The position numbers and the translations under genes are program-made. A stretch of DNA of 64,000 nucleotides, taken from Bolinopsis microptera. Lineage: Eukaryota; Ctenophora; Tentaculata; Lobata; Bolinopsidae. This document shows positions 1,406 through 52,032 of the stretch, in pieces. The stretch covers positions 3,885,408 to 3,949,407 of the forward strand of contig NC_087082.1 in assembly GCF_026151205.1 (NCBI RefSeq). The letters are read 5' to 3'. The notes under the pieces were generated by a model. It searched no databases, had not been told where the DNA came from, and saw only the letters and a program-made list of their open reading frames with translations. Positions within the stretch are counted from its first letter, which is position 1; every line of letters starts with the position of its first letter.

Positions 1406-4400
1406 CCGCAGTGTCCGTAATCTGAACGTCTACTTCTTGTCCCTGGTAATCCATCATTGTCTGGTAGCTGTCCAGCTTGGTGGGCTCATAGTCGTCCACA
1501 AACTGAGGGGAAATGGTTTAGTTCGTTTTAGGAGAATGCAAAACCTGCCAATTATAACATTAATTGTTGTCGAAACAAGACAGTAATCATGCAAATGGGT
1601 AGGAGTATTTATATTACATAGTATTTATATTACATGACATGTAATATAGACATTGTCTTTCCCCTCAATAAGGGTGTTTTCTGATTTCTAAACTGAGCTA
1701 CTCAACTCAGGGGTAGAATTTGTCAACCAATTTGTCAACAAGACAAGTTCCAAATTCTTAATCTGAGGACCCAAAACTGAAGATAAACGTCTCACCCAAC
1801 ACTCTAGTCAAGGCCCGCGAGTACATTTTAAATTAACTTTTAATCAACTTATTAGTTGAATCTGCTAAAGTTATGTTAGGAGTTGGTTCTCAGTTTTAGA
1901 CATCTCTTTTGAGACAACAGTTCATAGACTAGAGGGGTGCAAGTGGGTTCTGGAGTTCTGATATTTAACCAAAACTATTTTCAACCGATCAAGCTACAAC
2001 TGCCCTTCGCACGCGCATGTTAATTCATTTCATATCCACTGTGGTTATCATCTAACTTAATGTATATTATTTAATCCAATTTAAGATGTAAACACAATAC
2101 AATATATACACATAATGACAATATATTATATATAATGGTTACATCTGATAGCTCACACAATACACACAGAAAACAGCTGGTAGATTTAAAACGTGTTTTA
2201 TGCAGGCTACAACAAGAGAACAAGCACACGTGGTGCCTATAAAATCATGCACAATCTGGAACGTTTAAAGGTCGGGAAAATACTCTAGAATATTCCGTCT
2301 GCATTTTATCTTGTTTTTATATCAAGGTTACAGTTGTAATAATATGTCAAGAATAGAATATAGAGTCAATACTGTTGTAGGGTTAATGAATAATGTGCAT
2401 TGTATACAGTGTATGTACTCAATACACTGTATCTTATTAGCATATTACAGCACTAAAACTATAATACTAGAATTGCACTAGTGTACACTGCACCAGAATT
2501 GCATAAGAACTGGTACTATTACTGCACTAGCAGTGTACTGCACTAGAAATGCCCTATTGTAGTGTACTGCACTAGAAATGCACTAGTAGTGTACTAGTAG
2601 TGTACTGCACTAGGTAGGATTCAGTGCACTGTCTGTATTATAACTGTGATTAGTTTATCTCTACATACACCCTGCTCCGTACCATCACTGTATTATACTG
2701 CTCATATAATACACACAGCAGCAACTAACACAACACACAACTGAATTAGTCATTACACACACATTTCTACTGCTAACAGTCTTCCGTAATTACTGAACAT
2801 GCTAACCTATTGGAATGTGTAGGAATGCAAATAACGAACAGATTAATTTGCATGTGGGTTTCAATCTTACGTGGTAATATACATTAAACTCAGCAAAGGG
2901 CTGCGATAGCGTTCATTGGAAAATTGAGCTGTTTTAGGTGGTCTTAAAACCATATTGTGTAATTCCAAAACCTCATTTTAGACTTCATAAAAGTAGATAT
3001 GTACTTCACAACGTCATAACTCAAATCTCCATGTGTGTGAAACAGCAATGTAAATGTTTTTGAAAGCCATGTATTACACACTGTACGAACCAACACACGT
3101 AATTCCACAACTTGGTCTGATCATTTCCATATTTAACAATGACACCAAGTCACATGTGTGAAGCCTGGTTTCCTTTTATAGAATCCAGTACAGGTCATCA
3201 TTCTCTGTGTTTACGCCTATAATTGATGCTGCAACAATTAATAAAAGATTGCAGTATTTCTAAATCACATACACGTGGAGGAAGTGAGCTGTTATTACCA
3301 GTTAATGGTTAAAACTGCACTTTTAAAATGTATGACGTAGAAATTTAGGCATGTGAATGAATTATAAGAATGTGCGAATAATTAGGAATGCGAATAATTA
3401 GGAATGTATGCGATAATATTAGGTATTTATGCGGATAATTATGAGGAATGTAAGAGAGCAATTTGCACTTCTTACACTACAAATATTACATTTCATCTTT
3501 TCATATTAGGTATGCCAGCGTTAGTTAATAGTTTTACACAGAACCAGAGTAAATTGAATACTCAAAGTCCACTTTACAGTTCACACAATACTCATTTCAA
3601 ATCTAGACTCACAGAAGATGTGAACACAACATAATACAATAATTATACCGTACTAAAGTACTAACTACACGATGATATGGGGATTCAACTCTAACCATTT
3701 TATCAGAACATATTGTATTTTAAATTATTACAGTGTACATTACGACACAATTTCATATGTAACCAGGCTAATATTATTCTAGTGATCAGTACAGAAGTAG
3801 TGTGTATAAAACACACTTTAAACCAACAACTGCACGCTAATTTCACGTTTTGCTAATGCTTGTATTCTGTAAGGATGCACTTGAAAAAAAAACAAGGATA
3901 TCCTGAATTCCGATCATTCTTCTCCTTTTCTTGGCCAGGAATTTAAAAACATTACGGTGTCGGGACCTCCATGAACTTGTCATCATGACACAGAAGTTGC
4001 CAGAATTTCCAATATATTGACTGCATACATTAGGGAAAGTTCATACTTTCGTAAATCCTAGTGATTAGATTTAAAGCAAATGTTAGTGTGAATACTGGCA
4101 AGCCGGAAATAGTTAGGGTGGGTTGGTTTGTGGACCAAGCTAGTTCGGACCCAGCCCTGATATCTTGAGTGAGGGTTTGTGGACCCAGCTAGTTCGGACC
4201 CAGCCCTGATATCTTGAGTGAGGGTTTGTGGACCCAGTTAGTTCGGACCCAGCCCTGATATCTTGAGTGAGGGTTTGTGGACCCAGTTAGTTCGGACCCA
4301 GCCCTGATATCTTGAGTGATGGGTTGTGGACCCAGCCCTGATATCTTGAGTGAGGGGTTGTGGACCCAGCTAGTTCGGACCCAGCCCTGATATCTTGAGT

Positions 4401-10917: not shown

Positions 10918-12770
10918 TACAGGGGGATAACTACAGGGGGAGAACTAGAGGGGAGAGAACAGCTCAGTACTACACCTGAGGAAGAACTACAGGAGGGAGA
11001 ACAGCTTAGAACTACATAATTCTGAGCTGTTCCCCCATGTAGTTCTCCCCCTCCTCTGTAGTTCTCCCTCCTGTAGTTCTGAGCTGTTCTCTCCCTGTAG
11101 TTCTGAGCTGTTCTCTCCCCTGTAATTCTCCCCCTATAGTACTTCTGAGCTGCTCCCCCTGTAATTCACCCCCTGTAGTTCTGAGCTGTTCTCTCTCCAT
11201 GTAGTTCTTTTGAGCTGTTCTCCCCCTGTAGTTCTTTTGAGCTATTCTCCCCCCTCCCTGTAGTTTCTTCTGAGCTGTTCCCCCATGAAGTTCTGAGCTG
11301 TTCCCCCTGTAGTTACCCCTCCCCTGTAGTTCTCCCTCCCTGTAGTTCTGAGCTGTTCTCTCCCCTGTAGTGCTCCCCCTGTAGTTCTGAGCTGTTCTCC
11401 CCTGTAGTTCTCCCCCTGTAGTTCTGAGCTGTTCTCCCCCTGTAGTTCTTCCTCCTGTAGTTCTGAGCTGTTCTCTCCCCATGTAGTTCTTTTGAGCTAT
11501 TCTCCCCCCTCCCTGTAGTTTCTTTTGAGCTGTTCCCCCATGTAGTTCTCCCCCTCCCCTGTAGTTCTCCCCCCCCCCCCTGTAGTTCTGAGCTGTTCTC
11601 CCCCCTGTAGTTCTCCCCCTGTAGTTCCATGAGCTGTTCCCCCATGTAGTTCTCCCCCTCCCCTGTAGTTCTCCCCCCCCCCCCTGTAGTTCTGAGCTGT
11701 TCTCCCCCCTGTAGTTCTCCCCCTGTAGTTCTGAGCTGTTCCCCCTGTAGTTCCCCCCCTCCCCCGTAGATCTCCCTCCTGTACTTCTGAGCTGTTCTCT
11801 CCGCTGTAGTGCTCCCCCTGTAGTTCTGAGCTGTTCTCCCCCTGTAGTTCTTCCTCCTGTAGTTTTGAGCTGTTCTTCCCCTGTAGTTCTGAGCTGTTCT
11901 CTCCCCTGTAGTTCTTCTGAGCTGTTCTCCCCCTGTAGTTCTCCCACCCTGTAGTTCTGAGCTGTTCTCCCCCTGTAGTTCTTCCTCCTGTAGTTCTGAG
12001 CTGTTCTCCCTTGTAGTTCTTCTGAGCTGTTCTCTCCCCCGTAGTTCTTCTGAGCTGTTCTCTCCCCTGTAGTTCCTCTGAGCTGTTCTCCCCCTGTAGT
12101 TCTCCCACCCTGTAGTTCTGAGCTGTTCTCCCCCTGTAGTGCTTCCTCCTGTAGTTCTGAGCTGTTCTCCCCCCTGTAGTTCTCCCACCCTGTAGTTCTG
12201 AGCTGTTCTCTCCGCTGTAGTGCTCCCCCTGTACTCTGTAGTTCTGAGCTGTTCTCTCCCCTGTATTTCTCCCTCCTGTAGTTCTGAGCTGTTCTCCCCC
12301 TGTAGTTCTTCCTCCTGTAGTTCTGAACTGTTCTCCCCCTGTAGTTCTCCCACCCTGTAGTTCTGAGCTGTTCTCCCCCTGTAGTTCTCCCACCCTGTAG
12401 TTCTGAGCTGTTCTCCCCCTGTAGTTCTCCCTCCTGTAGTTCTGAGCTGTTCTCCCCTTGCAGTTCTTCTGAGCTGTTCTCTCCCTGTAGTTCTCCCACC
12501 CTGTAGTTCTGAGCTGTTCTCCCCCTGTAGTTCTCCCACCCTGTAGTTCTGAGCTGTTCTCCCCCTGTAGTTCTTCCTCCTGTAGTTCTGAGCTGTTCTC
12601 CCCTTGTAGTACTTCTGAGCTGTTCTCTCCCCTGTAGTTCTCCCCCCCCCCCCCCCCCTGTAGTTCTGAGCTGTTCTCCCTCCTGTAGTTCTTCCTCAGG
12701 TGTAGTACTGAGCTGTTCTCTCCCCTCTAGTTCTCCCCTGTAGTTATCCCCCTGTAGTTCTCCAGCACCA
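10905..12770. repeat. Minisatellite with inverted terminal arms
   Basis: A long array of two alternating motifs, ctgtagttctgagctgttct and cccctgtagttctccc. From about 11013 to 12770 the array runs in one orientation, but its first ~105 bp (10905-11012) are in the opposite orientation and are the reverse complement of its last ~105 bp (12663-12770). The whole array is therefore flanked by its own inverted arms. Long open frames on the minus strand reflect a repeat unit with few stop codons and low-complexity NSSELQG-type peptides; they are not genes. Confidence 0.9.
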
Positions 12771-12779
12771 CCTGTCCTT

Positions 12780-14045
12780 TTGCAGCCACCTCATCATGAG
12801 CAGAAACCTGTGGAACTGTTCAAAAACGATTTTATAGATCAGAAGACTGCGGAAGAACTAGTTGACCTATTTGATTTGAGCAGCACAGACTTCAAAATTG
12901 AAAACGAACGCTCCTGCCTATCATATGGGGAACGGTACGATTATCCTGGATCTAAGTCGTCCAAGACACCAAAGGCAATACCACCACCCTTGAGAAAACT
13001 CATCGACAGAATCAACAGTGAGTTTTGTTCAGGTGACCAACCTCAGGTTAACAGCTGTTTGGTGAATCGGTTTGACGGCACAAGCAGCACCTTGCCTAGA
13101 CACTCTGATAACGAGCCTTCTATCCACCCGGAATCAAGTATCTTTACAGTCTCTCTTGGTACTGCATGTCATGTTTCTTTCTCTGATGCTAGTACAGGTA
13201 TTGATGAGCACAAGCAACTATGTGGCCCAGGATCATTATATGTAATGACTCGTCGTAGCCAAGCACTGTTCCACCATCGTATCGATGCAGGCGAGATAAC
13301 TGGGCTGCGCTACAGTATAACATTGAGATCAGTCAGTTCCCTGAATAGAAACGCTACATGTATCATTGGGGACTCGAACACCGGCGGACTGAAATTCGGT
13401 TCTGATCCTGCCAAGTCATTCGGCAAATGGCTTCCTGGAAAACGATTCTTTGCCCCAACTGTCGATAGCATTGATCCTTATGTGTCCTGTGGCTATAGAA
13501 ACTGTGTTATATTGTGTGGGGTTAATGACCTGAAACAAACAGATGTAAAAAGCCAAAACGATATTGATATAATCTACAACCATCTAGTTTCAAAAATTGC
13601 CCAGATTCAATCTATTAATCCGGGTGTGCATGTATATGTTTGTCCAACAATTCCTTCTAAACGTGCTGATTTAAATAGAAAGCTTATATACTTTAACAGT
13701 TTGATTCGATGTAGGCTGCTCCCGTCCAATTTTGGTGTCAGTTATGTGGATGGATTTGATGAGTTCTGTGATAGGGATGGTCTCCTTGACCGCTCTCTCT
13801 CTCGCGACCTCAACAAATACCAAAAACCGGACTTCCTTCACCTCAACTGGAGGGGACTAGCAAAGTTAGGTCAATTTATTCGTAACACTGTTCTTCTCAG
13901 GATTAACGGTGGTATCGACAAAAGGAAGAGGAGGTCCACAAGGGTAGACGATAGATCCTACAGGGATGCGACTGCTGGAAGAGAAACTGGTCCTGTTGTT
14001 CCTGCTGCTGCTAGTCAGGGTCACGTGGATGGTTACCAACCATGA
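12780..14045 (+). CDS. Retrotransposon ORF1: AlkB-like 2OG-Fe(II) dioxygenase fused to SGNH hydrolase
   Basis: About 420 codons. The N-terminal half has the iron/2-oxoglutarate signature of AlkB-type dioxygenases: RHSDNE (HxD), a second histidine in LFHHRI, and the arginine in RYSITLR. The C-terminal half has SGNH/GDSL hydrolase blocks: IGDSNTGG (block I), CGVND (block III) and a final LHLNWRG carrying the catalytic histidine. Esterase-type ORF1 proteins are known in CR1/L2-like LINEs; the AlkB fusion is unusual. The frame opens with TTG at 12780 and its first in-frame ATG falls inside the AlkB domain (near residue 155), so the true start is missing or supplied upstream. The sequence cctgtccttttgcag just before the open frame looks like a 3' splice site. 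The stop overlaps the next start as ATGA. It may be 5'-truncated. Confidence 0.8.
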   Translation: MQPPHHEQKPVELFKNDFIDQKTAEELVDLFDLSSTDFKIENERSCLSYGERYDYPGSKSSKTPKAIPPPLRKLIDRINSEFCSGDQPQVNSCLVNRFDGTSSTLPRHSDNEPSIHPESSIFTVSLGTACHVSFSDASTGIDEHKQLCGPGSLYVMTRRSQALFHHRIDAGEITGLRYSITLRSVSSLNRNATCIIGDSNTGGLKFGSDPAKSFGKWLPGKRFFAPTVDSIDPYVSCGYRNCVILCGVNDLKQTDVKSQNDIDIIYNHLVSKIAQIQSINPGVHVYVCPTIPSKRADLNRKLIYFNSLIRCRLLPSNFGVSYVDGFDEFCDRDGLLDRSLSRDLNKYQKPDFLHLNWRGLAKLGQFIRNTVLLRINGGIDKRKRRSTRVDDRSYRDATAGRETGPVVPAAASQGHVDGYQP

Positions 14046-17000
14046 CTCCCCTCATTAAGGAGGTATGTCCTGTCTGTTCTAAGAACATAGTCATCGGCCA
14101 AACAATAGTTGAATGTTTTCACTGTGACTGCATAATGCACCATAAATGCTATCGCAAATCAAATCCAAATAGCCAATCTAATGAGTTTTACTGTACTCGT
14201 TGTATCCATTTAGACAAGGTTAAATACAACCCATTTAAACTACTCACTGACAATGACGACGACGACAACAACCTAGACGAATACACAACCAAAATCTCAA
14301 ATACTTTAAATGATTGTAACTCATACACTGCATCTGACCTTACAAATATTCTCTGCAACCAAGTAAAGAAACAATCATCTATTCTCTTTCAAAATATTGA
14401 TGGAAATAAATCAAATTTTGACAACCTTGCCATTGAAACCTGTAGGTACAAAACAAAATTCTCCGTAATAGCTCTAGCTGAAACCAACACTGGAAAAGAA
14501 TTAAGCAGTCTATTTCAGCTCGACGGTTATAATAGTTACTATCAGGACACAGCACCTAACAAACAAAAGGGCACTGGAGTAGCCCTTTATGTTGACGATA
14601 AATTAAATGCTACTGTAATTGAGAATATATCACAAGTCACAGAACATCTAGAAATACTTGTCTTATCATTAAGTAACGAAGATCAACCTGTTAATGTAGG
14701 TGTTTTGTATCGTCCACCAAGTGGCTGTATTTCCCAAGCTCTAGTTGAACTTTCTAACCTTCTTGATCACATGCCGAAGTTTAGTTATCTAGCTGGAGAC
14801 TTTAATATCGATCTTCATGATAAAGATAACAAAAATGTTCAAAAATATGAAGAAATATTATTCAGTAAAGGATTTTGTCCGTTAATATCTATTGTTACCC
14901 ACGAAAAACCAGGCTGTAAAGCATCCTGCATAGATAACATTATTACTAACGATATTGAGAATGTGATTACTTCAGGCACCCTAAAAGAACGAATAACTCA
15001 TCACTCACCTATTTTTAACACATTTAACTGGAATGTTGAAGTCAACTCTGAAAAAACTTCTTTTAAACAATATTACGACTTCTGTCAATCAAATGTTAAC
15101 GGCTTCCTAGTGGATCTTGAAGATGAGCTTAAAACTAAAACAATCCATAACTTTACTGAATTCCATGACACTTACAAAAACTGCGTCGAAAAATCGTTTA
15201 AATTAGAGACCCCGAAAACCTCTAAGAGAACTGTTCAGGTTAACCCTTGGATAACTCCCGGTCTCATTTGCTCAATTAATAATCAGCATAAACTGTACGA
15301 AAATTGGGTTGAGATAAGAAATAGAAAATGTAAACTCGGGGAAACTGATAACAAGGGCGGCATTTGCCAGTGCCCTGAATGCTCACTAAAACGTAGTCGC
15401 TACCTTATCTACAAAGAATACAGAAAAGTCCTAAAGAAAACACGTCAAACTGTGAAAACAGAATACTTCTCTGGTAAATTTGCTGAAAATAGCGGTGATA
15501 GTAAAAAGACCTGGGAACTAATAAATCGTATAAGAGGTAAACGGCGGCGTGAAATAAAGCCGCTGTTCACCATAGACAACGTTAAGATAACAAATAGAAG
15601 GATCATAGCAAACGAATTCAATAAATATTTTGTATCATTAGCCTCTGACCTAAATACCGCTTACAATGATCTTGGACAAATTAACATAAACAGTATACCT
15701 AGTTTCTATGATTATCTACCGCTTTCAAACACTTCCAGCATTTACATGCATGACTGCACAACAGACGAGGTTAGCAAAATCATATCTGAACTTAAAAATG
15801 GCAAGGCAAGTGACATACCGATTCATGTAATTAAGCAGTCCTCTAAAATAGTTACTCCTTTACTCACTGTACTGTATAACGAATGTATGAAAGATGGCAT
15901 ATTTCCAGATGACCTTAAAGTTGGAAGGATTAGTCCCATTTACAAGAAAGATAACCAGGAACTCCTTGAAAACTATAGACCTGTATCAACGCTAGCTGTG
16001 TTTGGTAAAATATTTGAAAAGATTATATTCAATAGATTATACAGCTTCTTTCATTCACAGAACTCCTTATATGAAAACCAGTACGGATTCCGTAAAAATC
16101 ACTCGACCAGTTATGCCCTAAATTACTCAGTGAACCACGTAGAATCTTGCCTCAAGAAAAAACAACACGTTCTTGGAATATTTATTGATCTTAGTAAAGC
16201 CTTTGATACAATATCACATGAAAAGTTACTGCATAAGTTAGAAAATTATGGAATCCGTGGAAATGCAAATAACCTTATAGCAAGTTACCTGTCGAACAGA
16301 TACCAGTATGTCTCGGTATTAGGTGAAGAATCCGAGAAACTTCCAGTAGTCTATGGAGTGCCGCAGGGGAGCTGTCTTGGTCCCTTACTTTTTATTATTT
16401 ATATTAATGACATCCGTAACTCATCAATTATAGGAAAGTTTATACTATTTGCCGACGACACTAACATATTTATAGAAGACACATGTGTCAAAAGACTATA
16501 CGAAAAAGGAAATGAAGTTCTATCATTTGTGTACAAGTATATGAAACTAAACTTATTACATATTAACATTAAGAAATGTTGTTTTATTCATTTTAAACCC
16601 TCACGGGCCAAAGAGGAAGTAGAAAATGACGAGAACATACTAACTTTAAATAATGTAGTTATCAAAAGAGTTCAAGAAGCTAAATTTCTAGGCGTTATTA
16701 TTGACGACCAACTTAACTGGAAATCACATACGCAGTCACTTAACTCAAAACTTAAATGCGAAGTAGGAAAGCTGTGCAGAATACGACACATTGTCCCAAA
16801 GCAGTATTATAAGGATTTATATCATACTCTATTTGAATCACATTTAGGATTTGGAATATCTGTGTGGGGTGGTATTAGCAATAACCGACTTGAACCTATC
16901 TTTAAAACACAGAAAAAGTGTATAAGAATTCTGTTTGGGGATAGAGAAGCTTACCTAGAGAAGTTTAAAACGTGTGCCCGAACACGACCTGTTGATAAGC

Positions 17001-17395
17001 AAAGACTGGGGGTGGACTTTTACCAAAAAGAACACTCCAAGCCCTTGTTTAAAACCCACAGGTTGTTGACGGTCCACAATCTGTACAAGTACACTTGTCT
17101 CTTAGAACTATTCAAAATTAATAAGTTAGAGGAACCATTATCACTGTACTCATCATTTAACAGGTCACCACGACGAGAGGATTATTTCATTACATCACAA
17201 CCATCCTCACAATTCATCTACCAATCATCCTACATGTGGAACAGCTGTCGACAAACATCAAGTAAGATAAGTTTTAATACTCCGACAAACGGGTTTAAGA
17301 ATATATTGAAAATTGCCTTACGAGAATTGCAATTCAAGCATGATACACTTGATTGGTGTGAGCTTAATTTTGCCACAAATGAGCTCAAGTTCTGA
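14042..17395 (+). CDS. Retrotransposon ORF2: PHD finger, APE-type endonuclease, reverse transcriptase (intact)
   Basis: An uninterrupted 1117-codon frame starting at ATG 14042. Residues ~9-55 form a C4HC3 PHD-type zinc finger (CPVC, CFHC, HHKC, CTRC). Residues ~115-335 form an apurinic-type endonuclease/exonuclease-phosphatase domain (FQNIDGNKSN, ALAETNTG, YRPPSG, AGDFNIDL, IDNIITND, THHSPIF). The reverse transcriptase follows, with NYRPVSTL, YGFRKNHST, FIDLSKAFDTISH, GVPQGSCLGPLLF and the catalytic FADDTN. The order fits the CR1/L2/Jockey group of LINEs. The ORF is full length with no stops, so the copy is young. No poly(A) tail or clear 3' repeat was identified. Confidence 0.92.
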   Translation: MTPLIKEVCPVCSKNIVIGQTIVECFHCDCIMHHKCYRKSNPNSQSNEFYCTRCIHLDKVKYNPFKLLTDNDDDDNNLDEYTTKISNTLNDCNSYTASDLTNILCNQVKKQSSILFQNIDGNKSNFDNLAIETCRYKTKFSVIALAETNTGKELSSLFQLDGYNSYYQDTAPNKQKGTGVALYVDDKLNATVIENISQVTEHLEILVLSLSNEDQPVNVGVLYRPPSGCISQALVELSNLLDHMPKFSYLAGDFNIDLHDKDNKNVQKYEEILFSKGFCPLISIVTHEKPGCKASCIDNIITNDIENVITSGTLKERITHHSPIFNTFNWNVEVNSEKTSFKQYYDFCQSNVNGFLVDLEDELKTKTIHNFTEFHDTYKNCVEKSFKLETPKTSKRTVQVNPWITPGLICSINNQHKLYENWVEIRNRKCKLGETDNKGGICQCPECSLKRSRYLIYKEYRKVLKKTRQTVKTEYFSGKFAENSGDSKKTWELINRIRGKRRREIKPLFTIDNVKITNRRIIANEFNKYFVSLASDLNTAYNDLGQININSIPSFYDYLPLSNTSSIYMHDCTTDEVSKIISELKNGKASDIPIHVIKQSSKIVTPLLTVLYNECMKDGIFPDDLKVGRISPIYKKDNQELLENYRPVSTLAVFGKIFEKIIFNRLYSFFHSQNSLYENQYGFRKNHSTSYALNYSVNHVESCLKKKQHVLGIFIDLSKAFDTISHEKLLHKLENYGIRGNANNLIASYLSNRYQYVSVLGEESEKLPVVYGVPQGSCLGPLLFIIYINDIRNSSIIGKFILFADDTNIFIEDTCVKRLYEKGNEVLSFVYKYMKLNLLHINIKKCCFIHFKPSRAKEEVENDENILTLNNVVIKRVQEAKFLGVIIDDQLNWKSHTQSLNSKLKCEVGKLCRIRHIVPKQYYKDLYHTLFESHLGFGISVWGGISNNRLEPIFKTQKKCIRILFGDREAYLEKFKTCARTRPVDKQRLGVDFYQKEHSKPLFKTHRLLTVHNLYKYTCLLELFKINKLEEPLSLYSSFNRSPRREDYFITSQPSSQFIYQSSYMWNSCRQTSSKISFNTPTNGFKNILKIALRELQFKHDTLDWCELNFATNELKF

Positions 17396-43704: not shown

Positions 43705-44201
43705 ATCCTAGCTTACTGAGGCATCTCGTGTTAGAAATTACGAACTGTATTTTGCTTACGGTTTTTAAACTGTTTATCTACTTCGCAACGGAATACCGAA
43801 GAGATAAGGATATGCCCCAAAAAAATAACCTGAGCTCAGAGCTGGGTCGTCGGCCAAAAACAAAGGAACAAATACATGCTCGTCATTTTTATTATTGCAT
43901 AATCAAATTTAGAGAGTTAAGGTGGAGAACTGGAGGCGGGGCAAAGCGTTTTAAAGTATTTATCTAATCGTTATCAGATAAAGTGAAGACAATATATAAC
44001 GTAACCATAATATGGCTGTCACTTGTCTGGTCTGATATTTGTCCCTCAAACAAGCTGTGACGTAACCATTCACACGTCGATTAGTAGAAGCACGAGTTAA
44101 CGCTAGATTCAGCATCGTGTTAGTTTAGTTTAGGTTTAGTAATAAAATCTTTTTTGTTAGCTTGTTAGGATTATTTTTAGTGTTTAGTTTATTTTACAAT
44201 T

Positions 44202-47200
44202 ATGAGGTTTAATTTAACGGTTCTGGAGAAATTAGCTATCTTTCTGGCAATATTTGTAAGTAGCTTTTTAAATCATCATTCGGTTTTGCTTAATTACCAG
44301 GTTGGGTTTTATTTCAATGAATATAGGGCCTGATGGACAGAATAGAGATTTTCATAAAATGATTCTTCATTGAGCCTTATCATTTGATAACGAACTTTTC
44401 AGCTGCAAATTGAAGGGAGAGGTGAACTATCATTGAAGTTCGAACAATACAAGAACTCATCTAGCTGTGATAATCCAGGGAACGCCTGTGACTTCTACTT
44501 TAAAATTACTACATCCGCCGCCTTCCAATCGTGAGATTCTTCTAGAATATCACCCTGCCCTTTTGCATTAAATCCTGAATTTAAAGTTTGATTTCATTCT
44601 ACTAATTTGTTCACACATCAAGTCACAAATCTCGATAAAAAACATTTAATTTTTTCCAGGTCATTCACAAGTGATTACTACGGGAATAAGCAGTTAATTT
44701 ACTTCGGTAGTTCCTTCCTCGGTGGAGATCCAAATCCCATTAGCATTACGTTCACAACAAATGTAAGTTTAAAGTTCCGGGGTTATTCGAATTAAAACTG
44801 AAACTCACATCTACACATGAGAAGAGTAAGATTTTAAGATATGGAGCCGCATTTTAAAATTATTCTTCTCCAATTTCCATCGACGATTTTAATAATAATC
44901 TAGCATAGGCCAACGTCAGTGATTAATGTTAGTATTTTTAACCCTCATAATTAGGGGGGGGGGGGGGGCTAATTATCATGATTATAAAGTTATAGCAATA
45001 TCTAAACCACTTACAACAAATATTCTGACTAAAAACTCTTAGGGCACCGTGTCTTTAGACGTTGAAATAATGGACAAAGATGAGTGGACGACGGGGAGTG
45101 ACGACTTTATAAGTAACCTAAAGTACACCATAAACCCATGGAATTTAAAATCTGGGGGCGATTGGAAATCAATATCCATTAAAGATACTCAGGTGAGTGT
45201 AAAATGGGAACCAAGCTGAGATTTTATACAGTCTAAGACATGACAGTATCTTGTCAACTTAATATTAATACCTGTTAAATCCGACCACATTTTCACGAAC
45301 GTCAAACAAATACATGATTATGGTTCTGTTGGTCCTAATAATAATAACCAATATATTAATAATATTATGTGTGACTAGCAATGTCTAAGTTCTGGTTGAG
45401 GTGTGAGTTTAATATTGTTATAATTTGAGGGCTGGTCATGGTCTCAAGGCCTCGATCTCGTGACCATGGTAACTATGCACACAGCTCAGGTCAAAGCCAT
45501 AAAACAGCAAGGTTTTTATAACTAGCCGAACTTTACTTGTGATTTAATTCTATGGCGAAAGTTGGAATAATATTTATTGCAAATTAGCTCGACTTTATGC
45601 AGTCTGATTTTATGCCTACTCGTACTCTGCCCATTCATATGTCTGTTCTAGGTCTCTGTGAAAACAAGGTGCCTTACAGCCTAACTGACATAATGTTATA
45701 TAAATTATCATGATTCGTGACGATTATGATCCAAAGTTATTCCAAACTGTGTTGGTCATTTTAAAAACATTAAACATGACTTATTTCAATCAAATTTTTC
45801 GAATTTAACCATATCTTTAGTCTCTCACATGCCCGTCCCCGATGATGACTTCTATTGATCAGACAGGTAACGTGGTCGTCGAAAATTTTCTCATTTATAA
45901 AGATTATATTGTACAGGGACATCTCAATTTAAAGTACAAAATTATCTCCTGTTCACCGGAATTTGACGGAAATGGCTGCAACGATTGTGCGACGAACTAC
46001 TATCAACACAACTGCTCTGTCTTCTGTAAACCGACTCAATCTGTCTCTGCAAATTACACTTGCAGCTTCACAGGTTTACTTATTTTTCACTTCAATGAAT
46101 ATTCAAGGTAGTAAGGTACTTGGTGAAATCGGATCATAGCAACAGCCGTTGGAGATTAATATTCAATAGTGCCAGTGTAAAAATTACATAGCAATAACTT
46201 CAGTGAATGTTAAAAATTAAACCATTTATCAAGATCGGCTGATCTTTTGAATACAAGGATCATTTCAAACAACTTTCCTGGTCAAAAACATCCACATTCG
46301 CCATCCACCTCCCACATCAATTATGGCGATAATTCATGATTATCCACTGAACATCGGTGGCATTAAATATAACGGATATTACAAACTGAGATTATATTGT
46401 TCGCTTAAGAAAGCGAAATATTTGTTGGAGTGAACGAATGATATTCGGAGGGACACTTAATTATGACACTTTGAACAGATCCTACAATATATTCCCCGGG
46501 ACGCACCACTTGAATTTATTGCATTATTACCCCCGTACTGGAGTGATGGAACAGCCATGACTTACCTACAGCCAATAACGTTAGGTATAAGCTCGTCATG
46601 CATAACTTGAGTATTGTTAATTTGATACCTCATTGAGCTTGTTTAGCCTCAAGGTGACGGATAATTCTCAATGTGAGGGATAATTCTCATAATCGTTTTG
46701 TTTACCTGAGGTGTTGTTCCCCGTTCACTTTATCATAAATATTATTAATCTTTGTTGAATGATGTCCCTGTCTAGTACCAAGCATTTAAGGAACTAAACC
46801 AATGAAGCCCATGAAGTGCTCCCCGGAAACTCATTAAACTAAGATTTTATACTTTATAGGTTTCTGATCTTATTTTAAGCTTTAATTTGCAAAGTCAAGG
46901 GATGTTAATTTCTACATTTAAGAGCATTGGTATAGAATCACTTCATCAGAATGCTACTTGCAGTTTTATGCAAGTAAGCCAATATCACATAGCGCATTTA
47001 TTTCTTGAGTTGTCAGTCTTACATCCATGTGACAGCCTTGTGACACCTGCCATAAAACATTACAGCGGATAAAATGCAGAGGTCGACAGCACTTAATTAT
47101 ATTTGTCATACCATGTGAGGTGCACTCCCCTCGTCCAGTAACAGCTAGCTAGGAGACACCCCATTTGAAAACGTGATTTCGCGTCCTGGTGTTCAAGAAG

Positions 47201-50200
47201 TAGAATTCGGGCTGCCTTGTGCTTGTCTACCACAGTCCACAGATAAGGATCAGTACAGTGCAACTCTAACACTACTCCGGCACCTGATAAGAGTATCACC
47301 CCGGTAACACACTTCTCCCTGTTACATCATGCATGAAGCCACAGATTACAGAACCCGTTTCTGCACAGCATCATGTGCAATGACGATGTGGTAATGTGGT
47401 CATGACTGGGAATAATGTATTAAGAGATAATTATGTAGTCAGCTATAATAAATAATTAATGATGGTGGGTGCTCACTGCTCTTTGATAATTATTTGATCC
47501 TTTCAAGCTTGCTGTCAGTTTATTTGCATTGAAATCGAATTCTTTATCCACATAAAACCTTAGAAAAGCATAGACGGCCATGGATCAATTTGACACATAA
47601 TTATTAATTTAAAACTTAATTCTTATCTTTCCAAATATTTTCAGTGGGCTGGGAGTCAGATCTTGATATTTCTTATCTAATCATTTGTTATCTATTGTTT
47701 TTCTTCCTAGTAGGTTTATTTGTCTTGTCTAGAACCAAATCTTTAACTGCCCGTATTTGATAATGATAGAAGTATGAATAAAACAAAGTTATTTAGTGAA
47801 AAATGTTTATTCAGAGGAGATAATGAGCGGTGTAAGACTAAGAAAATCAGTGATATTTTGTATCTTATTCCTCTACATGTTGGTAAGTCCAAATTTTTTT
47901 CGAATGTAATTCCACTTCTTGAGCTTATGATTGCACTTGCATGGCTTTGAATCAATATATCTCGTGACATGACAGCAACTGAATCTTCGTTTAAGCTGGA
48001 AGAGGAAAGGAGCACGTGGCAATCGTTAAGATTGTGATATGGTTACACTGAACTTAAATAGGATTTCTACTCCATTGCAGGAAAGGGGCGAAACAAGTGG
48101 TATTGGTAAAATAAGGTTCATCTCCTATTTTGACAACGGTGTAGAAGGTTCCAAAGATATGTGTGGGGATATGAGTTCATCGTGTGACTTTTACTTTAAT
48201 CCCATCGAAATCATTGGAGCCAAGTAAGTCACATCAGCAATACCAAGTTGTTGTGACCATATCATATACTATGGCGAAGATCGTGAAACACGATCTTCGC
48301 CATAGTATATAATATAAGTCCTGTTATGTCTTATTAAGAAAATATTTTGCTAGACTAATATATAATACTAAAATATCTGTTTCGTATCAACCTTATTATC
48401 TCTGAAAATTCCTCTGCACTACAATTGTATAGTTTGATTGTACGAAAACTGTACGAAAACTGTACAAAAACTCCCCAGCCATACTATTATCAAGACCAAC
48501 GTAATGGATAATACTTACCTTCTCGATCTTACGAAACTGATCCCTGGAATCATATACATCAAACTTAGAACAAACGTTTGTAACTGGTGGGGTGGGGTTG
48601 ACTTTAAAATTAATCCTTAAAATGAATTTATTAATGTTTCATTTGAGATCCGGATTTTGAGTGCAGGTTATTGGATACTGAATGTTTCTAATATTTCAAT
48701 ATTATTCACAATCCAAACCGTGTCATAGGATACAGTTCAATTAAAGTTGACGGTGATGGACGATGATGGAGGGTTGAGTAATCCCGACTATGTAAGACAG
48801 CTCCAATATGAAATAGACTTCTCTTTGGTACACCTAGACGGCCACTGGAAAAAAGAGGAATTCAATTACTCGCCACCAAATGTAAAAATTAAAAAAACTC
48901 AGATAAGGAATTTGGATTCCCAAATAAGTGACAATTTCTTATAATTCATTATATTATGTTAATAATAATGACTTGAACATAAACCTACAAAACATAGTTA
49001 TAATGCATGTAAACCAGCATGTAAACCAGCATGTAATAGGCACCTTACTATCATGCCCAGTAATGAGCTCATATCCGATACAATCAGGTAAATGACAGAG
49101 CTAAACTCAAGTTGGAGTACGCGATTGACAGTTGTAATACTCATTTTGTAGAAGAAGGCTGTAACTTCTGCGAAGAGAACTATCATACACCATCCTGTGA
49201 CGTATTTTGTAAACCTACCGTAAACTTTACATGTGATCATGAAACAGGTATATCATGAATGTAGACAATTTACCATGTTACCAAGGTAAAATGGGACTCT
49301 TAATTCTTTAATTCATGCCACAATTGTGCCATTTTGTAACTTTGTTGCAGAATAGTCGTATTGACATAGTAGTGGCATCATGTAACGTCTTAGTTGGGGG
49401 GCATTATGCATGAGCACCTTAGACCAATAAAATGCAATATGCATGCTAACTGATGTTCACATGTTCAACTCAAAGGTCATAAAATGCATTGCATGAACTA
49501 GGGAAATGTAGCCGATTGGGACAGTTAATTTCAGCAATGATATGAATCCAGTCAACTAGGTAGTAACCATGGCAACCCTCCATTTCATCTTCACTTTCAT
49601 TTGATCACTTACAAATCAAACAGCCAAGTTGCGACTAGACAAAATAATCTGATTACCTCAAAATCATGAGGAAGGTCAGAATTCTATTGATCATTCATCA
49701 AAGAAAATTCGAACTGTAACCAGCTGTTAAATCAAAGTTTAATCACCAGATAATTAATCACAGATTCTAGTGCATGATGATTCATTTTCAGGTGAGAAAG
49801 TGTGTGGGTATGGACGAGCAAAACCTGATTGTGACACATGCCGTCTGAACTACTATTCTACAAACTGTAGCAAATACTGTGTCGACAGTCCAGGACAGCA
49901 AAGCTGCAACAAGTCAACTGGAGAAAAGACGTGCCTGGGTAACTGGATAGGAGAATGTGATACCTGCAAATCTGACTATTATGGATCAAATTGTTCTGTC
50001 TATTGTGTTGCTGTGCCAGGTAAAATGACTTTCATAGGCTTCAAATTATCAGCTATAAGTATAAATAGAGAGAAAGGAGTAAGTAATTCAAGTATCAAAT
50101 TGTAGTTATTTTTACTAATTGAGGTAACTCAGATGTTAAGAATAAAGGATTGGTTTATTTTCACTGTCTGGTGACTGGTTGATCACTATTCACCATGATC

Positions 50201-52032
50201 AGGTAACTACAGCTGTGACACCAGTACTGGAGACAAGCTATGTGTTATTAGTAAGACAGGAGAAGACTGTGACCATTGTGCAGCAGGGTACTTTGGGACG
50301 GACTGTGCGATATATTGTCAGGATACTCTAGATCAATACTCCTGTGATGAGAATGGTACAAAAATATGCGAACAGAACTGGATTGGTAAAGACTGCAACA
50401 GTTGCTCTGATGGATATTATGGGGTGAACTGTGATAAATACTGTTTGCCAACTGGTCATTACAATTGCACTGAAAAGGGAGAGAAGTTGTGTCTAGGGAA
50501 CCGAACAGACAGTGCCAATAACTGCAGTGACTGTTTGCCAGGATATCATGGGACTAACTGTGACACTTTCTGTGTAGAGATTAACAGGTATACATGCAGC
50601 AACAATGGATCAAAGCAATGTAAAGATAATTGGGATGGACAGCAATGTGATCTATGCCTAACTGATTATTATGGTCCAAACTGTGATGTGTTCTGCACTC
50701 CCAATTCAAATTACAGCTGTGGTCAAGATGGTTCAAAACAGTGTTTTGGAAACCGAGGAGGTCTCGAGTGTACAACTTGCATTGAGGATCATTTCGGATT
50801 TAACTGCACAACTTACTGTGATCATAGCAACACAAACTACACCTGTTCTAGTAATGGAACTAAAATATGCGACAAGAACCGGCAAGGCATGGAATGTAAT
50901 CAGTGCACTGCTGATTACTTCACTTCTTCATGTCTAGTACATTGCCAGGAATCTGTGAAAAAAACATGCGACAAAGAAAATGGAGAATCTGTATGTAAAG
51001 GTAACAGGTCTGGCCATGATTGTTCAGGTTGCAGACCAGATTTCTTTGGAGACAACTGTGAAACATTTTGTGATACTAATTCCACAACATTTACTTGCGA
51101 CAGTGGAACTGGTATGAAGATATGTAACAATGACTGGTATGGAGTAGACTGTGAAGTATTTTGCGAACAAGTGGAAAATCGCTACAACTGCTCCACAAAT
51201 GGAAAAAGGGTCTGCTTGGGCAACTTTGAAGGGGACTGCTTTGTATGTAAGCTTAATTTCTTTGGTGATAACTGCAATACATATTGCCATGAACTTCCTG
51301 AACAGAGCAAGTGCAGCAATAATGGAACAATAACATGTTTAAACAACTTTTCTGGACCTAGATGCGAAAACTGTACAGAGGGTTGGAGTGGACATCAATG
51401 TAATATCTGTGAAATCTGCGAGGAGGGGAACAAAGATAAAATAATTTCAGCAAATGAAAGTAAGTTTTCAATGACTTAACAGGTTCCTTTTACTAACTAG
51501 CAATGACCAATATTTAAGCTTTAAAATGATAGAGGTATAAGCAGATGTAAAGGGTAAATGATCTTTGATCATATATAATACTTACATAGATATCATCTGC
51601 AAACAGAAAGGCATAGGTACATCAATTCAAAACCTTTTGCATCTCTGTTGTGAGTATCGTAACAAATAATCGGTTAGAAGCTGCAATAATTGGTTATAAA
51701 TTTATCCAGCACTATGAATAAATTCTAATTCCAATTTATTTTATCATTTACTTTATGAAAATATCTTAGGTTTTACGAGGACCCTGGTCATAATTTGTGG
51801 TATATTTGGATCAGTTACAATTGCTGCCCTGCTCATCACTGTGAGGACGAATGTGAAGATCAGCAGAATAAGAAACAAGAAAAATCCATTGATTTGGACA
51901 GACAGTCAGCTAAAAATTGAACTTGAAGAAGTAAGGTGTGGTAGAAAATTAACAACTCAACTAAGCAAAGGAAATTTAGATCCACTTAGCTTTGAATTTG
52001 CTTACGATAACCCCGTTTATGAGGACTTTTAG
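44202..52032 (+). CDS. Delta/Jagged-type Notch ligand made of tandem DSL repeats, two alternative N-terminal cassettes
   Basis: Cassette A exons: 44202-44255, 44403-44530, 44660-44762, 45043-45192, 45821-46073. Cassette B exons: 47823-47882, 48081-48223, 48479-48575, 48729-48881, 49088-49247. Common exons: 49792-50019, 50203-51459, 51770-52032. Both cassettes have phases 0, 2, 0, 0, 1 and join the common part in frame (811 or 786 residues). Each cassette encodes a signal peptide, a C2-like MNNL domain (GRGELSLKFEQY, CDFYF, SLDVEIMD in A) and a first DSL unit (NYYQHNCSVFC in A, NYHTPSCDVFC in B). The common part has about eleven more DSL-type units of ~42 residues (C..C...YYG.NC..YC...C..G...C..NW.G..C), many N-glycosylation sites, one transmembrane helix (LVIICGIFGSVTIAALLI) and a short tail ending NPVYEDF. 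No EGF repeats were seen. Expected role: cell-surface ligand for Notch. Cassette A has no downstream exons of its own. Confidence 0.85.
47823..49247 (+). CDS. Second N-terminal cassette (B) of the tandem-DSL ligand
   Basis: Five exons (47823-47882, 48081-48223, 48479-48575, 48729-48881, 49088-49247) that parallel cassette A exon by exon and in every intron phase. Protein: signal peptide MSGVRLRKSVIFCILFLYML, then an MNNL-type region (GKIRFISYFDNG, CDFYFNP, LKLTVMDDDGG) and the first DSL unit (CNFCEENYHTPSCDVFC, TCDHETG). The donor of exon 4 (AAT/gtaaaa) is the weakest site in the model. Cassettes A and B are clearly paralogous but diverged, so the duplication is old. Confidence 0.75.
48264..48310. 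repeat. Perfect 22-bp inverted repeat in an intron
   Basis: Arms of 22 bp (atatactatggcgaagatcg plus tg) with a 3-nt loop, in the intron after cassette B exon 2. The loop is too short for a standard microRNA precursor; it may be a recent foldback or a cruciform. Confidence 0.85.

Follow-up and report, generated by a model that had tools for sequence, protein, structure and literature searches.

In the ctenophore Bolinopsis microptera, a window of 64,000 nucleotides (NC_087082.1, here C11:3885408-3949407) contains two N-terminal cassettes, A and B, followed by one set of exons, D1-D3, that encodes a body of tandem DSL repeats. The initial annotation had proposed that alternative promoters choose between A and B as the receptor-binding head of a Notch ligand, in the style of the clustered protocadherins. 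From our analysis of the window and of the genome (264.65 Mb in 232 contigs were searched), we tentatively prefer, over a body shared by both cassettes, that A is a gene of its own for a short membrane protein. A and B-D would then be tandem siblings within a single family of DSL-repeat genes. From B1-B5 plus D1-D3, gene B would encode a type I membrane protein of 786 residues, with a signal peptide, a C2/MNNL-like head, tandem DSL repeats, a transmembrane helix and a short tail. Gene A would encode 235 residues, its exons A1-A5 being spliced in phase 1 to a candidate membrane-anchor exon at 47645-47760; a putative poly(A) signal follows at 47777, shortly ahead of B. The product of A might thus show a bare head at the cell surface on a short anchor, whereas that of B-D might show its head on a DSL rod. 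A may once have been a full gene, in which loss of the phase 1-1 DSL exons would have left the head and anchor exons in frame.

Two head cassettes and one DSL body

The exons of the two cassettes and of the body, in window positions, are as follows.

44202..44255, + strand: cassette A exon 1, signal peptide; frame open, donor GTAAGT
44403..44530, + strand: cassette A exon 2, where the C2/MNNL-like head begins (CDFYFK); frame and head-profile match
44660..44762, + strand: cassette A exon 3, head; frame and head-profile match
45043..45192, + strand: cassette A exon 4, head; frame and head-profile match
45917..46073, + strand: cassette A exon 5 (A5), head end plus opening part of the first DSL unit (DSL1); phase-1 exit, weak donor GTTTAC
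47823..47882, + strand: cassette B exon 1, signal peptide; open frame
48081..48223, + strand: cassette B exon 2; frame and head-profile match
48479..48575, + strand: cassette B exon 3; weak donor GTTTGT
48729..48881, + strand: cassette B exon 4; frame and head-profile match
49088..49247, + strand: cassette B exon 5, opening part of DSL1; exits in phase 1, 49% identity to A over 47 positions
49792..50019, + strand: body exon D1, phase 1-1, DSL repeats; frame and Pfam
50203..51459, + strand: body exon D2, phase 1-1, DSL repeats in tandem; frame and Pfam
51770..52032, + strand: body exon D3, transmembrane helix and tail to NPVYEDF, stop TAG; frame

The two cassettes have five exons each with the phases 0,2,0,0,1, as had been described from the sequence, and every intron in them starts with GT and ends with AG. 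Both also end in the phase needed to join D1 at 49792, giving 779 residues for A with the body and 786 for B with the body without any stop codon. The two cassettes are 35% identical, and their kinship was seen by tblastn mostly through exon 5. The matches of the head profile in the window were confined to six exons, 2-4 of A and 2-4 of B, and tblastn found no further family pieces in the window (30 of the 111 rows lay outside the genes, with a best E-value of 0.64). Each cassette had been said to encode a signal peptide, an MNNL domain and a first DSL unit. The signal-peptide exons stand, but each cassette holds only part of DSL1, through the fourth canonical cysteine in what we take to be the cysteine order of the domain, while the remainder is encoded from 49792 onward; the MNNL assignment is borderline, as discussed below. 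The equal phases had been counted in favour of a shared body. They do not discriminate, because the same series 0,2,0,0,1 occurs in the intron-split head V of a paralogous locus (L033, C1:4.42 Mb), so that it is an inherited family trait and uninformative on body sharing. A near-perfect hairpin, a self-inverted match of 57 bases at 91%, lies in intron 2 of cassette B (48259-48315).

A candidate ending for cassette A and its alternatives

The claim of a single downstream exon set holds for the tail of the body, for which the window gave the only genome match at E <= 1, but it overlooked a candidate terminal exon between the cassettes. Three features in this interval bear on the fate of A.

47645..47760, + strand: candidate last exon of A, encoding VGWESDLDISYLIICYLLFFFLVGLFVLSRTKSLTARI with a transmembrane anchor and closed by TGA; phase fits A5, acceptor TATTTTCAG
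47777..47782, + strand: AATAAA poly(A)-like signal, 16 nucleotides past the TGA of the candidate exon
47711..47714, + strand: candidate spliced-leader acceptor of B, the first exon bases after the two best acceptor-like sites upstream of B's ATG (scores 4.9 and 7.1)

The candidate exon encodes 38 residues in phase 1, a transmembrane helix followed by a basic tail, and its TGA at 47758-47760 sits in the run TGATAATGATAG. The helix has a KD19 value of 2.67, compared with 2.56 for the helix of the body itself, and the net charge changes from -3 before it to +3 after it. A start, an anchor, a stop and a poly(A) signal are therefore all in place for A as candidates, with mixed controls and post hoc criteria. 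In 721,236 non-coding frame-bases, four such helices were found by chance (0.010 per 1750-base segment and phase), of which none had a charge asymmetry of at least 4, one had an AATAAA and none had both. A control of 110 segments gave the same counts (four helices, charge asymmetry in none, AATAAA in one, both in none), and Markov sequences reached the candidate's own scores in 1/2000 cases without and 0/2000 cases with the AATAAA. Helices like that of the candidate exon thus occurred rarely to occasionally in the chance controls, and none had its charge pattern. Of seven family genes whose downstream sequence was searched, L018 and L020, close relatives of each other, have a transmembrane exon with a phase-1 entry. 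No DSL remnant was found between A and B at E <= 10.

Several observations weigh against this ending. In 198 overlapping segments, the less favourable control, the candidate's own scores were reached in 7/198 without the AATAAA and in 1/198 with it, and looser scores in 10/198 and 1/198, respectively; looser scores without the AATAAA were also reached by 74/2000 Markov sequences. The control pools overlap one another, and the exon was noticed before the criteria were set on it. Among the 96 AG dinucleotides in 46081-47822, six score above the acceptor of the candidate exon. Upstream of B, the best polypyrimidine tract is provided by this T-rich exon itself, for the sites at 47711/47714, which fall inside it, and this second role may explain its hydrophobicity. 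The exon has no other genome match at E <= 10. For the other five of the seven family genes (L017, L021, L022, L024 and L029), no transmembrane exon with a phase-1 entry was found. Finally, the residues at the A5/D1 junction, TG before and EK after it, are the same as in B.

A body shared by A and B is the principal competitor, which we consider rather unlikely. A and B would be alternative heads on D1-D3, chosen by a promoter, by exclusion of the B exons, or by trans-splicing at B versus cis-splicing from A. The intact state of A, its in-frame junction with D1 and the single-copy tail of the body argue for such sharing. On the other hand, B2-B5 carry AG acceptors between A5 and D1, so A must skip four exons to reach the body; joining A5 to B2, B3, B4 or B5 shifts the frame and brings a stop at residue 207, 206, 210 or 200, respectively. 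Scored with simple generic position weights of our own, not trained on this species, the A5 donor GTTTAC is the weakest of 12 donors (-2.5, followed by B3 at -2.3), and among 197 acceptor-like AGs in the interval from A5 to D1, that at 47714, before B's ATG, scores best. The likeness to clustered protocadherins lies in several alternative 5' units ahead of one 3' exon set. Protocadherin variable regions, however, are single exons without acceptors, whereas the units here are five-exon cassettes with internal acceptors and a putative sharing, so that an upstream unit does not automatically skip the downstream one. In this respect the protocadherin parallel is not upheld, and the broader proposal of a shared body is supported in part, by the intact joinable cassettes, the single-copy tail and a second two-headed locus described below, but not by the phases, the acceptors of B, the weak A5 donor and the candidate ending of A.

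Trans-splicing would offer one way to choose the head. Acceptor-like sites precede both starts, at 44169 (score 5.7) and 47714 (7.1), and would suit the addition of a spliced leader. With a query pattern taken from the spliced leader of Hormiphora, as given in part of PMC8527503, the genome gave 566 matches with up to two mismatches compared with 405 for the reversed control, and the four exact matches all lie within C13:12.81-12.89 Mb. Eight of the 566 places were examined: six on C13 share the leader-like stretch together with its flanks, and those on C9 and C12 lack the flanks. By its sequence, the C13 cluster (L034-L039, C13:12.80-12.89 Mb) is an array of spliced-leader RNA genes, in which the leader ends with AATTTGAG before GT, and its presence favours a shared body. 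The array is also in keeping with a ctenophore genome; a search for zf-C4 gave no match, which by itself is no proof of absence. On a single pre-mRNA, cis-splicing of A5 to D1 could give the A form and trans-splicing at 47711/47714 the B form, so that the head would be chosen without alternative promoters, by a device that would have arisen separately at C1:4.414 Mb; we regard this specific scheme as improbable. The part of PMC7986045 consulted describes operons as unreported in ctenophores at that time.

Three further readings concern the end of A. Both endings might be in use, giving a short anchored A through 47645 and a long A through 49792. Each junction is in frame, and the A5 donor is weak, as is frequent in alternative splicing, but the objections to each ending alone apply here as well, and we think this combination unlikely. 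Hardly more probable is that A is a functionless 5' stump, left recently when the body of its gene was deleted, the alternative already raised in the initial annotation. No body of A's own was detected, and the family does include broken head pieces, such as C7:6829773-6830297 (L019) with four in-frame stops. Against a stump, A is open throughout and keeps all its splice dinucleotides. In our neutral-decay simulation (our own rates, indels at one tenth of substitutions, 2000 runs per rate), A stayed intact in 39, 16, 6, 1 and 0% of copies at 0.01, 0.02, 0.03, 0.05 and 0.08 substitutions per site, respectively (about 1% at 0.05), so that the loss of the body would need to be recent; in this recent form a stump is possible. 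Very improbable, in our view, is that A reads on into the intron to give a secreted head of 209 residues with the tail GLLIFHFNEYSR. From the split codon on, 12 residues can be read without a stop, and the donor is weak, but the donor dinucleotide is retained and 46074-46215 contains no AATAAA or ATTAAA.

A second two-headed locus on C1

A search of related genomes for the same layout had been suggested; the layout was found once more, within the same genome. At C1:4.414 Mb, a profile of 12 heads, run against the window and L009-L033 as 5893 six-frame pieces, found a head U (L033 380-1520, C1:4.4144 Mb) upstream of the head V and its body.

L033 380-516: U exon 2, acceptor CACAG, open
L033 973-1105: U exon 3, open
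L033 1353-1520: U exon 4, open

Exons 2-4 of U share the phases of V, and the two heads are 38% identical. Exon 5 of U was not recognised, and L042 and L033 gave no DSL-like piece ahead of V. Nor was a transmembrane exon found after U, except for the signal-peptide stretch of V at 4230-4241, which speaks against the separately anchored form that we favour for A. U4 joins V5 in frame with a junction identical to that of V4, making alternative heads feasible. This second locus raises the odds of body sharing, as U lacks both a recognised DSL exon and a recognised anchor and can use exon 5 of the next head. However, U4 also joins V2 in frame, which would give a double-headed protein, so the locus can equally be read as a single two-headed gene, and exon 1 of U was not identified. 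In phylogenetic analysis, U groups with V and with the head of L032 (C1:1.41 Mb; 100/99), of which the first three head exons match those of V, and a grouping of A with U was rejected (p 0.0035, 14-row tree). The two head doublings therefore look independent.

The genome thus has two sites, apparently formed independently, where an intact head lies ahead of another head with a single DSL body. Either the family yields head-only or double-headed proteins, or splicing picks heads, and the C1 locus would keep head choice alive. Among the open-licence papers that our searches listed, none described such a locus.

Identity of the head and the wider family

The DSL domain is clearly present, with 12 stretches of PF01414 (E 5e-59) in A plus body, where DSL and EGF_laminin were the only Pfam families and no EGF repeats follow the DSL units. 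The head is less readily assigned. Among the 12 heads scanned with Pfam MNNL, only that of A matched, at E 1.7e-4 and 21.5 bits against a cut-off of 22.5, and B gave no match. By sequence against the PDB, A matched Jagged-2 across head and DSL (E 0.005), while the Delta match of B plus D1 was limited to the D1 part (E 0.008). A profile of A and B reached Notch ligands through the DSL piece only (Jagged-2, E 0.023), and the best matches of the 12-head profile were C2 domains, though weak (E 0.05). The head is likely of C2/MNNL-like type, though for B this is tentative. The GHY-type loop of DSL, the motif that contacts Notch, was not found, A having KPTQSVSANYTC and B KPTVNFTC at this place.

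Like Delta and Jagged/Serrate, the predicted proteins combine a signal peptide, a C2/MNNL-like head, DSL and a transmembrane helix. Unlike them, they carry DSL units in tandem where those ligands have EGF repeats, and their MNNL match is at most borderline. Since EGF repeats are missing and the DSL loop differs from the GHY type, we do not file the locus as a Notch ligand. Three other loci (L001-L003, C3:8.85 and C3:3.45 Mb) have canonical-looking DSL units with the GHYTC or GHFTC loops that DSL1 here lacks, and they are candidates for the true Delta-type ligands of the species. The status of such ligands in ctenophores is unclear: according to part of PMC4810162, Pleurobrachia has Delta, and in Mnemiopsis the diagnostic domains are missing. 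Closer to the present family are genes of Nematostella, for which the relevant part of Gazave et al. 2009 (PMC2770060) gives DSL-only genes with 1-11 repeats and one gene with MNLL and three DSL domains; its authors were undecided whether these are true genes. As far as this account goes, the head with tandem DSL and without named EGF repeats is common to both, whereas the family here is large and several members have a transmembrane helix and a tail with a sequence resembling an immunoreceptor tyrosine-based inhibitory motif (ITIM).

The genome gave at least 72 DSL matches at E <= 0.001. Searches with the heads at E <= 1 hit 40 places for A and 50 for B, their own exons and some repeats included, and at least 25 related heads lie elsewhere. 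The head tree comprised A, B and 25 others, the latter each within one open frame; only heads matching over at least 140 residues and at E <= 1e-5 were admitted. A was placed by L022/L024 (81/82) and B by the C7 group (82/80), on very long branches of 2.09 and 2.07; a clade of A and B was not rejected (p 0.116; 0.16 in the 14-row tree), from which we draw no inference.

The family, with a head and tandem DSL, is found in L009-L031, which lie mainly at C7:1.65-6.85 Mb, C12:9.97 Mb and C4:11.37 Mb. Among 31 cysteine-rich open reading frames listed, 15 have a transmembrane helix and 12 of these 15 have at least one ITIM-like match behind it, by the loose motif [SIVLTA]xYxx[ILV] (for example ALYSTI and ATYITV); the helix scan started at residue 150, so that one helix at least, that of L023 1882-3309, escaped it. 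This large head-plus-DSL family with ITIM-like tails would offer candidates for surface recognition receptors that can be put to the test. In a paper on ctenophore immune genes (PMC11797021), the terms DSL, ITIM and Notch are absent from the main text.

Individual members vary. In L022 (C1:23.36 Mb), the DSL head is followed by the tandem pieces CSAGDYMTDTGCQQCGENTFSSDRASSCIDCPNGKFSNAGSTSAENC, and may sit on a different type of body. L028 (C3:7.47 Mb) and L029 (C11:12.85 Mb) have identical heads on two chromosomes, in open frames of 451 and 273 residues, pointing to a recent duplication. Other broken-looking heads are split between frames (L011 5607-6154, L019 8332-8977 and L026 3457-5304), where introns are possible. 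Elsewhere in the window, 12744-17392 contains a retroelement-like pair of open reading frames. A 2OG-Fe(II) oxygenase domain (E 2.5e-16) lies in the first, together with a GDSL-like stretch that stays under its cut-off (E 2.1e-6); the second has a reverse transcriptase.

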